From positions 1 through 25,963 of the forward strand of contig JAKQBN010000059.1 in assembly GCA_029559475.1 (NCBI GenBank): 25,963 nucleotides of DNA. Direction: 5' to 3'. The translations under genes and the position numbers were made by a program. The first letter of the stretch is position 1; every line of letters starts with the position of its first letter. A model generated the notes under the pieces. The model ran no database searches. It worked only from the letters and a program-made list of their open reading frames with translations, and was not told where the DNA came from. Positions 8,478 to 11,669 of this stretch are shown one piece after another. Source of the stretch: a bacterium (GTDB taxonomy: Bacteria > UBA4055).

Positions 8478-8521
8478 ATAAACAAGTGAGAAAAAGCAGT
8501 ATATTAAGTAAGGTTTAACAA

Positions 8522-8824
8522 ATGGAAGAAGTAAAAAAGATATACTCGGGTTACGGAGAATATGAAAGGCTGATCCGGCACAGAATGGAATTTTATATTA
8601 ATCTCAGATATATAAAAGAAAATATTCCTGATAAGAGCCTGAAAATTCTTTATCTGGGCGGGGGACCGGGCAGGTATGCGATAGAACTCACAAAAGCCGG
8701 TCATAAAGTAACTTTGATCGACCTTACTGATTTTCATGTTAAAGAGGCTAAAAGATTAAGTAAGGAAGAAAAAATAAAACTTCACATTGATCTTGTAGCT
8801 GCAAAAATGTTTACGGTACATTAG
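8522..8824 (+). pseudogene. Truncated class I SAM-dependent methyltransferase
   Basis: Only 100 residues, against about 230-260 for full methyltransferases of this kind. The N-terminal helix and SAM-binding motif I are intact: 'ILYLGGGPGRYAIELTKAG' followed by the acidic 'VTLIDL' strand. The sequence stops soon after 'EAKRLSKEEKIKLHIDLVAA', before motifs II-IV and the substrate-binding half, with the tail 'KMFTVH'. No continuation is evident in the 125 bp before the next gene, so this looks like a deletion remnant rather than a simple frameshift. A small inverted repeat (AATGT, 7 bases, ACATT; 8806-8822) sits right at the truncation point. The N-terminal half alone should not be catalytically active. 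Confidence 0.7.
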
Positions 8825-8890
8825 TATCTTCCCTAAAATTTAAATCTACTGAAATAAAGAGGTTTTTTTCGATATATTTCAAAATAACAC

Positions 8891-8921
8891 TTGACTTGAA
8901 CCTAGGGTTTATGTTTACATT
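8891..8921 (+). promoter_or_regulatory. MerR-type promoter/operator for the regulator gene
   Basis: TTGACT (-35, 8891-8896) and TACATT (-10, 8916-8921) are separated by 19 bp, the over-long spacer typical of MerR-controlled promoters. The spacer carries a near-palindrome, AACCTAGGGTT (8899-8909), centred on CCTAGG. Transcription would begin near 8928, just ahead of the regulator's start at 8950, which predicts autoregulation. It is seen by eye; binding is inferred. Confidence 0.7.
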
Positions 8922-8949
8922 GTTTTTATAAATGAAAACCGGAGGAAAT

Positions 8950-10317
8950 ATGTATTACAGCATAGGAGAATTTTCAAAGGTAACGAACCTGACACCAAAA
9001 ATGTTGAAGATCTACCACGAAATGGGTCTTTTGATACCTGCAAAGGTGGATGAGTTTTCAAAGTACCGGTGTTATAATGAAAGTAATTTTGAGGCTGCAA
9101 ACCTGATAAGTTTCTTTAAGCAGTTTGATTTTTCATTAGCTGAAATAAAAGAGATCGTTGACAATCAGGATGATGAATTAATTTTAACAGAATTTCTTGA
9201 AAAGCAAAAAGATGTTATTGAGAACAAGATTACCAAATACAATTTTGTTATGGGTTTGATAAACGGCAAATTAAATCGGAGGATCATCATGTCAGAAAAA
9301 AATAGCAAATCAGAGCAAAGAAGCCGTTTCTGGAAACTGTTCTCCAAATTGATAGGCAGAGAAGTTTCAATGGCAGATTCTCTTAAGATCGCCTCAGATA
9401 GTGCGGATGATGAGTTGAAATCTGTGATTGCAGATGTCATAAATGAAATTGAAGAAGGAAAAAAACTGCATGATACAATGGGCAAATACAATACCGTATT
9501 TACCGAACTTGAAATATTCGTAATTAATCCCTATAGCGAAGAAAAATGTCTGAATACAGCTTCGATTATGTTAGGTGATTGTCTCGAAAAAGTAGGCTTT
9601 CCTGATAATTCAGAAGAACAAAAAAATACGCGTTCAAATTACTGGAAAACTTTCGGTTTGCTTTTAGATTCGGGGGTTTCACTAACAAAAGGTATGGAAA
9701 TCGCTTCCGAATGGGCAGATGAAAAAGTTAAAGCTGTTACAAAGCAAATGATAGAGGAAATATGTAATGGTATAGATTATTTTACTACTCTTAAAGACAG
9801 ACCGGAAATTTTCACAGAGCTTGAAATAGAATTGATAAGAATTGGTGAACAATCCGGGTATCTGGACATTTTTCTCAGAATATTACCAAGTGTTGTTAAA
9901 ATGAAAGAGGTATCTGAATCAGAAAACGAGAAAAGAAAAGATTTCTGGAAAGTGATAGGAGAGTTTAAAGAAGAAAATGCTTTTGAATCTATTGATAATA
10001 AGGCTTATGATGCAAACTATAATTTTATAGTGAAATTTAATGAAAATAAAGAGACGAATGAGAAAAGAAAACTACCTGACAGAAATAATTTTCATTTATT
10101 TCAAGATGTTATTCGCGTTGCTTTATTTGTGGCTGATGATAAGTTAAGAGCTATTTCAAAAAATATCATGGAAGAAATAAGGGAGAAAAAAACGCTGTCA
10201 TCAATAATGGAAAAACACCCCGACATTTTTCAGGAATTTGAAACTAAGCTGATAACCTTAGGCGAAGCGAATAAGAATATTGGTAAGGCTGCTCATGATA
10301 TTATTGAGATTTTGTAG
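8950..10317 (+). CDS. MerR-family regulator fused to tandem GspF/PilC-like (T2SF) modules
   Basis: 455 residues from ATG 8950, chosen because GGAGG (8941-8945) precedes it and an in-frame ATG at 8932 would lie almost on the predicted transcription start. Residues 1-70 are a MerR winged helix-turn-helix ('YSIGEFSKVTNLTPKMLKIYH', 3-23); 75-110 is the dimerising coiled coil. Instead of a GyrI-like ligand domain, the rest is helical and repeats the pattern of the cytoplasmic T2SF domain of GspF/PilC proteins. Module 1 is about 127-197, module 2 about 231-317 ('YWKTFGLLLDSGVSL', then 'LIRIGEQSGYLD'), module 3 about 384-453 ('ITLGEANKNIG'), with a short degenerate start at 332 ('FWKVIGEF'). No membrane helices are present, unlike true GspF. 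The likely role is a transcription factor with an unusual sensing or assembly domain; the ligand is unknown. A ribosome site lies at the domain junction. Confidence 0.75.
   Translation: MYYSIGEFSKVTNLTPKMLKIYHEMGLLIPAKVDEFSKYRCYNESNFEAANLISFFKQFDFSLAEIKEIVDNQDDELILTEFLEKQKDVIENKITKYNFVMGLINGKLNRRIIMSEKNSKSEQRSRFWKLFSKLIGREVSMADSLKIASDSADDELKSVIADVINEIEEGKKLHDTMGKYNTVFTELEIFVINPYSEEKCLNTASIMLGDCLEKVGFPDNSEEQKNTRSNYWKTFGLLLDSGVSLTKGMEIASEWADEKVKAVTKQMIEEICNGIDYFTTLKDRPEIFTELEIELIRIGEQSGYLDIFLRILPSVVKMKEVSESENEKRKDFWKVIGEFKEENAFESIDNKAYDANYNFIVKFNENKETNEKRKLPDRNNFHLFQDVIRVALFVADDKLRAISKNIMEEIREKKTLSSIMEKHPDIFQEFETKLITLGEANKNIGKAAHDIIEIL
9278..9291 (+). promoter_or_regulatory. Internal Shine-Dalgarno and ATG at the MerR/T2SF junction
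   Basis: GGAGG (9278-9282) is followed 6 bases later by an in-frame ATG (9289-9291), residue 114 of the regulator. It lies right after the MerR coiled coil and before the first T2SF-like module. Use of this start would give a 342-residue protein of T2SF-like modules without the DNA-binding domain. Alternatively it is a relic of a separate gene that became fused. Confidence 0.5.
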
Positions 10318-10342
10318 TTAAAATACTTGAGCAATTAAACTC

Positions 10343-10387
10343 TTGACAAAGCGTACGAAATTCCGTACTTTTATTCTAAGAAGGAGG
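10343..10387 (+). promoter_or_regulatory. Promoter and YefM-like operator of the toxin-antitoxin operon
   Basis: TTGACA (10343-10348) and TACTTT (10366-10371) form a promoter with a 17-bp spacer. The inverted repeat GTACGAAATTCCGTAC (10353-10368) covers the spacer and overlaps the -10 box, placing two GTAC cores 12 bp apart. The E. coli yefM-yoeB operator likewise has two TGTACA-core palindromes about 12 bp apart, so repression by the antitoxin or the toxin-antitoxin complex is expected. A strong AAGGAGG (10381-10387) precedes the antitoxin ATG. Confidence 0.72.
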
Positions 10388-10394
10388 TATTCGG

Positions 10395-10637
10395 ATGACT
10401 ACAATAAATGTAACTGAAGCCAGAAAAAACTTATACAATCTTGTGGATTTGGCAAACGAATCGCACGAAACTATTATGATATCAGGCAAAAGAGGAAATG
10501 CCGTTTTAATCTCCGAAGAAGACTGGTCAGCCATCAATGAAACTCTTTACCTTCTCTCAATTCCAAAGATGCGGGAATCAATAAAGAAAGGGCTGGAAAC
10601 TCCTGTTGACGAATGCGATACGGATCTTGACTGGTGA
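10395..10637 (+). CDS. YefM/Phd-family antitoxin
   Basis: 80-residue antitoxin of a type II toxin-antitoxin pair. The N-terminal half is the Phd/YefM DNA-binding and dimerisation fold: 'INVTEARKNLYNLVDLANE' then 'ETIMISGKRGNAVLISEEDW'. The C-terminal part ('LYLLSIPKMRESIKKGLET', then an acidic tail) is the flexible segment that wraps the toxin in YefM. It neutralises the RNase encoded next and should repress its own promoter through the GTAC-core inverted repeat upstream. Its TGA overlaps the toxin's GTG start by 4 bp, the usual way to keep antitoxin in excess. Length and motifs are normal. Confidence 0.9.
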   Translation: MTTINVTEARKNLYNLVDLANESHETIMISGKRGNAVLISEEDWSAINETLYLLSIPKMRESIKKGLETPVDECDTDLDW

Positions 10638-10897
10638 AGTGGAAATTGATCTATACAAAACAGGCTCAGAAAGATGCTTTAAAGCTGAAATTAGCAGGAC
10701 TCAAAGATAAAGCTGCGGAACTGCTTAAGATTCTCTCCGATGATTCTTTACAAAATCCTCCGAAGTATGAAAAGCTCGTAGGTGATCTTTCTAGTGCATT
10801 TTCAAGAAGAATAAACATTCAGCATCGGCTTGTTTACCAGATTTGTGAAAAAGAAAAGACCGTAAAAATCATCAGAATGTGGACTCATTATGAGTAG
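10634..10897 (+). CDS. yoeB: Txe/YoeB-family mRNA interferase toxin
   Basis: 87-residue toxin of the RelE superfamily, Txe/YoeB branch, which cleaves mRNA in the ribosomal A site. It begins with GTG at 10634 inside the antitoxin stop (GTGA). The YoeB catalytic residues line up: Glu46 in 'KYEKL', Arg65 in 'QHRLVY', and the terminal His85-Tyr86 in 'MWTHYE'. E. coli YoeB uses Glu46, Arg65, His83 and Tyr84, so the toxin appears active. 'LVGDLSSAFSRRIN' also matches the family. The last bases overlap the start of the acetyltransferase gene by 8 bp, so the toxin-antitoxin transcript probably continues downstream. Confidence 0.9.
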   Translation: MKWKLIYTKQAQKDALKLKLAGLKDKAAELLKILSDDSLQNPPKYEKLVGDLSSAFSRRINIQHRLVYQICEKEKTVKIIRMWTHYE

Positions 10898-11669
10898 GAT
10901 GATGACAAACTGGACAAATAAAGCTATTGAATCAGAGATCGAATATACGCTTGCCCGCGGAAGCGTAACTGTAGAACATAATAACTTCACACTTCTCGAG
11001 AACATGTTCGTTAAATGGTCGGGAGATTTCAACAGGGTTGTAAAGATAAAAGCGCACAACATCGATTCACTGCTTAACACAATTTCCGAAATTGAAGAAC
11101 TGTTTATCTCTAAGGGTATAGAGTGTCCGGTTTATTTAGACCTTGACGAATCGTTCGTTCCAGGAAAAGATTATTCCGAAAAGCTTGAAGATAGAGGGTA
11201 TTCGTTACGCAAAGAGCCGTTTTTATTCTCAGAGACAACAAATACTCATCTCCCTGATGATTACAAACTTGTAAAGATGACAGATGAGGAGAGCCTTTCA
11301 CTCTTGAAGGAAGAGCAGGTCAATAACGGTTACTATTCTGAAAGCGAATTTGAAAATACAGACAAAAAACTTCATATTATGTTTATAGATAAATTCGGGC
11401 ACTATAAGCTGGTGAAAAATGATGAAAAAATCGGTACTGTTTATATTGCTTTAATTGATGATTACTGCAGACTCTTCTCGGTGGTGATAAACGAAAAAGT
11501 CAGAAATTGCGGCCATGGGAAAGCTCTCATCGAATGCATTAAAGAATTTGGAAGCAGGTCGGGAAAATCATATATTCTTCTCAATTCACCAGAACGAAAT
11601 TTCGGATTCTATGAAAAATGCGGTTTTAATATATGTGCGTACATACACAGACTATGGAGAAAAAAGTAA
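10890..11669 (+). CDS. GNAT-family N-acetyltransferase
   Basis: 259-residue protein with a C-terminal GNAT fold (about 120-259). Acetyl-CoA binding motif A is visible as 'VINEKVRNCGHGKALIECI', followed by 'SYILLNSPERNFGFYEKCGF' typical of motif B. The N-terminal 120 residues look like a diverged second GNAT-like half ('VYLDLDESFVPGKDYSEKLEDRGY'), as in two-domain acetyltransferases. The first ATG (10890) overlaps the toxin gene by 8 bp; ATG 10899 and 10902 are alternative starts. Because it is tied to the toxin-antitoxin operon it may be co-expressed cargo. The acceptor substrate cannot be inferred. Confidence 0.78.
   Translation: MSRMMTNWTNKAIESEIEYTLARGSVTVEHNNFTLLENMFVKWSGDFNRVVKIKAHNIDSLLNTISEIEELFISKGIECPVYLDLDESFVPGKDYSEKLEDRGYSLRKEPFLFSETTNTHLPDDYKLVKMTDEESLSLLKEEQVNNGYYSESEFENTDKKLHIMFIDKFGHYKLVKNDEKIGTVYIALIDDYCRLFSVVINEKVRNCGHGKALIECIKEFGSRSGKSYILLNSPERNFGFYEKCGFNICAYIHRLWRKK

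Follow-up and report, generated by a model that had tools for sequence, protein, structure and literature searches.

The window, i.e., the whole stretch of 25,963 nucleotides analyzed here, contains on its forward strand a gene (8950-10317) that joins a MerR-type DNA-binding part to three tandem T2SF repeats in a single protein of 455 aa. By its defining features the predicted product is a MerR regulator, but its effector is of a new type. The best explanation that we can offer for it, and a tentative one, is a self-regulating MerR switch whose T2SF triplet would sense or bind an ATPase of the PilB/GspE type.

Domain Architecture and Predicted Fold of the Fusion Protein

The open reading frame, proposed in an earlier sequence-only reading with its start at 8950 and its stop at 10317, was confirmed, homologues being present in five genomes, and a Shine-Dalgarno sequence GGAGG (8941-8945, forward strand) stands 4 bases ahead of the ATG that it would serve. 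The N-terminal residues 1-78 (8950-9183) encode the MerR winged helix-turn-helix that had been recognized in that reading. This part matches Pfam MerR_1 (PF13411) with 7e-10, above the cutoff, over residues 9-78 of a 461-aa frame, and it also matches by sequence the structures of BmrR, Mta, and CueR. A long helix that presumably acts as the dimerization coiled coil follows (residues 79-110; 9184-9279); it has a weak match to Pfam MerR-DNA-bind. A full-length model, built from a two-row alignment, has a pLDDT of 41 and is usable for the helix pattern alone; it predicts a helix at 87-114, after the winged helix-turn-helix, and the six-helix order in each of the first two repeats.

The rest of the protein consists of about three T2SF-type repeats starting near residues 119, 226, and 328, as the initial reading had described them. 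They comprise repeat 1 (residues 119-225; 9304-9624), repeat 2 (residues 226-327; 9625-9930), and repeat 3 (residues 328-455; 9931-10314). Pfam T2SSF (PF00482) matches the protein in three stretches with 1.4e-24 (86.9 bits vs. a curated cutoff of 25.2), the stretch on repeat 2 reaching 40.7 bits. The NCBIfam models HofC (4e-21), GspF (1e-17), and PilC (8e-16) each match in three to four stretches, all below the cutoff for the full-length family. The repeats share about 25-35% identity with PilC, and repeat 2 is the closest to the Cyto1 domain of PilC/GspF. The PDB sequences of PilC (3jc8, 2whn) and EpsF (2vma, 3c1q) align to residues 237-327 of the 461-aa frame, i.e., to repeat 2.

A separate model of repeat 2, built with the repeats of the window and of the G009 homologue (L006), contains six helices with a pLDDT of 69. 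Its top 12 PDB matches all come from GspF, PilC, or TcpE and represent their cytoplasmic domains (Foldseek probability 0.87-1.00), with a VIA Z of up to 6.7 over 77 residues, which is modest for a helical bundle. Profile and predicted fold agree, leaving little doubt that repeat 2 would adopt the GspF/PilC cytoplasmic-domain fold. Repeats 1 and 3 are assigned as T2SF domains by sequence, from their PF00482 stretches and, for repeat 1, also from the domain alignment and the tree. Some features vary among the five family members: in four of them some 40 residues are inserted behind the first helix of repeat 3, an insertion that G002 lacks, and the GExSG motif has been lost from repeat 1 in G000 (the genome of the window) and G009. 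The G002 copy (L011 1510-2832) also shows a 23-residue tandem duplication within repeat 1.

The highest hydropathy over 19 residues is 0.83 in the window protein and 0.83-1.56 across the five homologues vs. 2.86 in a genuine PilC, and because of these low maxima no membrane helix is expected in the fusion. The proposal of a soluble T2SF effector is therefore borne out by profiles, domain model, PDB matches, and hydropathy alike, the comparison with PF00482 and GspF being positive both at the profile level and, for repeat 2, at that of the predicted structure. It had also been proposed that the protein lies outside the described MerR effector families, and none of them matches it. There was no Pfam match to the TipAS and GyrI domains in the fusion at E up to 10, and among the metal-sensing MerR models (CueR, ZntR, CadR, and MerR) the best one, CueR, reached 41.7 bits vs. 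the NCBIfam cutoff of 147.

Distribution, Origin, and Selection

A contig matching the protein at 84% identity belongs to Candidatus Delongbacteria, the phylum of the window genome. Among 13 genomes of this phylum that were compared, the fusion is present in five: G000, G002, G009, G010, and G012. It was not found in three partly overlapping genome sets (386, 386, and 397 genomes, mainly of other phyla) when these were searched with a profile of the MerR-T2SF family, a search that an independent fusion could escape if its MerR part were very different. The idea that other proteins might combine MerR with PF00482 is thus correct within this phylum and found no counterpart in those several hundred other genomes, where the best matches in other phyla were MerR-GyrI proteins. 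Viral contigs gave no relatives of the fusion, and plasmids and phages gave matches to the MerR part only, among the matches listed.

In the domain tree, all 15 repeats form one clade (100/97) and each repeat position is monophyletic over the five genomes. As shown by this topology, the genes descend from a single fusion event, with a triplication of a module of the PilC first-domain (N/Cyto1) type, before the five of them diverged. The repeat clade sits among the PilC N-domains and not among the C-domains, in a tree of few columns and long branches. Outside the phylum, the nearest MerR parts (about 98 bits) are those of proteins with a GyrI-like (PF06445) effector, and this relationship argues for an effector swap: the MerR part is, on sequence grounds, derived from the GyrI (multidrug-sensor) branch, the GyrI-like effector having been exchanged for three T2SF repeats.

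Judging from its substitution pattern, the fusion gene is conserved under purifying selection. The dN/dS ratio is lower in the MerR part (about 0.03-0.09) than in the repeats (about 0.12-0.5), with several dS values near saturation. A comparison of G010 with G012 gives 95% identity for the MerR part and 92% for PilC, vs. 57% for the repeats; the predicted DNA target has stayed constant, and it is the sensor part that diverges. A nonfunctional fusion, decayed or arisen by chance, would fit the patchy presence of the gene, its fast-diverging repeats, and the internal duplication in G002, but it appears extremely improbable: the five frames are intact and full-length or nearly so, their promoter is invariant, and dN/dS is far below 1 in every pairwise comparison that allowed its estimation.

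Mobility and Genetic Neighborhood

The promoter and the fusion gene are contained in an inserted segment (8787-10339, forward strand) that is absent from the corresponding locus of G002, a genome of the same genus (contig C186, L142). According to blastn, the left flank (window 8503-8786) corresponds to L142 73-356 with 95% identity and the right flank (window 10340-10900) to L142 2490-3050 with 86%, and in place of the segment G002 has the remainder of a methyltransferase gene and other genes. In the window, this methyltransferase (8522-8824, forward strand) breaks off at the left edge of the segment, after about 88 residues; its homologue in G002 is intact (266 aa, L142 92-889). The fusion copy of G002 is located elsewhere, on contig C171.

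The divergence of the fusion does not follow that of the genomes. G000 and G002 share 87% identity in PilC and 58% in the fusion; between G000 and G009, two genomes of separate genera, PilC is 79% identical and the fusion 84%, the synonymous differences being 0.78 against 0.39. In addition, a run of 179 bases (window 9893-10071) is identical to G009 in a gene that is otherwise 82% identical, which shows a recent recombination between genera. Considering the differing loci, the discordant trees, the mosaic stretch, and the truncated methyltransferase, the fusion seems to behave as a mobile unit. No convincing terminal repeats or target-site duplication were found around the inserted segment, and no transposase or integrase was seen beside the fusion.

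There is no conserved neighborhood: the four loci all differ, except for the synteny common to the two genomes of genus g6 (G010 and G012). In the window, genes for a YefM/Phd antitoxin and a YoeB toxin lie directly downstream of the fusion (10395-10897), and they are also present at the G002 locus that lacks it. Directly downstream of the G002 fusion copy there is an AbiEi-type antitoxin gene (L087 3578-4120), and directly upstream of it there are ABC transporter genes (DrrA-like), which are found upstream in G009 as well.

The neighboring toxin-antitoxin genes (YefM-YoeB for the window, AbiEi for G002) and the mobile single-gene character of the unit could suggest a decoy or guard, in which the PilC-like repeats, or an ATPase held by them, serve as bait for a factor with which a phage or competitor attacks the pilus motor, the attack triggering the promoter. 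Phage proteins do target PilB, Tip having been mapped to its N2 domain (PMC11656802). Such a role is nonetheless very unlikely, since the fusion gene has no effector or killing module and no conserved neighbor, and phage factors of this kind are known for PilB, not for PilC.

Promoter and Autoregulation

A MerR-type promoter was identified upstream of the gene (8891-8921, forward strand), with a -35 box TTGACT (8891-8896), a dyad AACC-TAG-GGTT (8899-8909), and a -10 box TACATT (8916-8921). In all five members the spacer between the -35 and -10 boxes is 19 bp and contains the palindrome AACC-N3-GGT(T), and the pattern TTGACTTGAACC-N3-GGT-N-TAT-N-TTTACATT is found directly upstream of all five genes at fixed positions. 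A spacer of 19-20 bp is a hallmark of MerR promoters (PMC9909328).

Allowing up to three mismatches, a range that more divergent sites would escape, this operator pattern occurs once per carrier genome, at the fusion gene, and not once in the eight non-carriers; within the same limit, neither the pilus locus nor any further gene of the 13 genomes has it. A shorter operator pattern was likewise not found in the pilus contig, and the contig with an array of PilB-like genes (see below) has one site with three mismatches that bears no relation to a gene and is about what is expected by chance. The sequence-only reading had envisaged the same operator at type IV pilus or type II secretion loci, and this part of it fails, the sole site being that upstream of the fusion gene. 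As the operator is found only at its own gene, autoregulation is favored over a pilus regulon, and the fusion looks like a one-gene autoregulated system, with its own gene as the sole predicted target visible. A function as regulator of the pilus genes looks improbable, given that the operator, at up to three mismatches, is absent from the pilus locus in the 13 genomes although the pilus genes are there. PilB, PilT, and PilC are present in all carriers, in line with the expected company of pilus genes, but most non-carriers have them too, and in the window genome pilT-pilB-pilC are on another contig (C77), not with the fusion.

Autoregulation alone would also fit a small-molecule sensor. The repeats might then work in a TipA-like manner, sensing and sequestering a toxic small molecule or peptide and inducing their own gene, with the T2SF fold as the scaffold of a pocket. 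Several observations agree with this: the own promoter is the sole visible target, the distribution is patchy and mobile, genes for ABC transporters precede the fusion in G009 and G002, sequence divergence is much faster in the effector than in the DNA-binding part (57% vs. 95% identity between G010 and G012), and the MerR part comes from the multidrug-sensor branch. Moreover, TipA-class MerR proteins have been described as minimal autoregulated resistance systems (PMC7762955). Against it, no pocket or conserved ligand-binding residues were identified, and Pfam detects neither a TipAS nor a GyrI domain. To our knowledge, T2SF domains are known for protein-protein contacts and not for small-molecule sensing, which also counts against this possibility, and we consider it unlikely, though second in rank.

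The repeats could instead be an oligomerization or architectural module without ligand that assembles MerR dimers into larger particles for a tight negative autoregulation. The Cyto domains of EpsF and PilC self-associate in crystals and models (PMC10790770), three tandem copies would favor multivalent assembly, and only the own promoter carries a predicted operator. However, the repeats evolve fast compared with the MerR part, which is unexpected at a self-association interface, and a purely self-repressing regulator offers no obvious benefit for its upkeep in five genomes, so that we regard this option as quite unlikely.

PilB-Like ATPases and Proposed Mechanism

In G009, the next gene on the same strand, about 204 bp downstream of the fusion, begins with a domain resembling PilB N2 (Pfam T2SSE 4.8e-6) and is cut off by the contig end (L006 5849-6094); in G010, too, the contig ends downstream of the fusion. 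It has a promoter-like sequence of its own, TTGACA-N17-TAAAAT, which is not a MerR operator. The two g6 genomes encode short PilB/GspE-like ATPases of about 400 aa with an N2 and a motor domain and no N1 domain, three in tandem in G012 (L108, contig C131: 3827-5029, 6245-7441, and 7464-8663) and two in tandem in G010 (L109, contig C121: 35-1234 and 2435-3637). Some of these genes are separated by genes for DUF5128 six-bladed propeller lipoproteins. The alignment shows that the Walker A motif (P-loop) is kept in the short ATPases and that the Asp box, the Walker B glutamate, and the His box are variously lost. PilB-like paralogues are thus found in three of the five carriers (G009, G010, and G012) vs. 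none of the eight non-carriers, a small association in which only two lineages are independent. G000 and G002, both about 91-92% complete, have the fusion without any short PilB-like paralogue.

These data, all from gene content, are suggestive of a link between the fusion and a pilus-type ATPase. In the modeled complex of a PulF trimer with a PulE hexamer, Cyto and N2D domains pair one-to-one (PMC10790770), and a similar arrangement of a PilC trimer and an ATPase hexamer has been proposed (PMC11656802). As first put forward, the fusion may sense contacts with a platform or with its ATPase, a possibility to which the domain logic and the PilB-like neighbors in three carriers lend limited support. 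Most likely, the sensor would be a protein-binding triplet, an ATPase being the leading candidate for its ligand, ahead of the toxic small molecule of a TipA-like system.

In the ATPase-sensing switch that we favor, the dimer would occupy its own promoter at the 19-bp spacer, which is longer than usual, as other MerR proteins do, and binding of the ligand by the effector part would twist the DNA, so that the RNA polymerase fires and more fusion protein is made. The nature of the ligand is a step that we propose with more reserve. In models, Cyto1 domains touch the N2 domain of hexameric ATPases of the PilB/GspE type, and such a domain may be the ligand here, either in the motor of the cell itself or in the short PilB-like paralogues of the three carriers. 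With six Cyto1-like domains, a MerR dimer would match the platform trimer, which offers one cytoplasmic domain to each of the six subunits of the ATPase. More binder would be made in response, and the ATPase would be titrated or inhibited, whereas pilus genes would not be controlled. As the repeats are divergent from PilC and the GExSG motif is lost in two copies of repeat 1, the ATPase-facing surface may not be kept. Taken as a whole, a one-component factor that senses a filament motor, in which an ATPase, by being present or by its state, sets the expression of the partner that titrates it, i.e., a mobile soluble offshoot of the pilus motor, is a possible but still doubtful description of this protein.

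Comparison With Known Systems

Our literature search found no paper joining MerR with T2SSF or GspF in an effector sense. As far as this search goes, a platform domain of type IV filaments that serves a transcription factor as its soluble effector would not have been described before. The range of MerR effectors would be extended from pockets for small molecules and metals to a probable protein-protein module. If the link to an ATPase is true, the fusion would offer a handle on how cells sense the state of the pilus motor, as well as a soluble Cyto domain for work on the PilC-PilB interface, which is hard in the membrane.

The soluble subunit C of A/V-ATPases has three six-helix bundles resembling Cyto1 (PMC10790770). 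Its likeness to the fusion stems from the description in that paper, and it has no DNA-binding part; it was not recovered with the fusion by sequence or structure search. The TipA class resembles the fusion, by a computed match, in being a single gene whose own promoter is the only visible target, but the fusion has no TipAS domain and no sign of an alternative short product or of a drug ligand. MerR-GyrI proteins of the BmrR type have the closest MerR part outside the phylum and share the promoter with a 19-bp spacer on their own gene in the two loci checked, L073 and L074 (TTGACT-N19-TATATT). The half-sites differ, being CTCC..GGAG in L073 vs. AACC..GGTT at the fusion, and the C-terminal PF06445 domain of these proteins is replaced in the fusion by the three T2SF repeats. 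Finally, the repeats resemble the Cyto1 domain of the PilC/GspF platform in profile, six-helix pattern, and predicted fold, the latter from repeat 2. Platform proteins are encoded with PilB/PilT, whereas the fusion lies outside the pilus operon, with a partial PilB-like gene next to it in G009; and in the PilC, GspF, and TadBC platforms these domains alternate with transmembrane helices, whereas the fusion presents three tandem copies, predicted to be soluble, on a DNA-binding domain.
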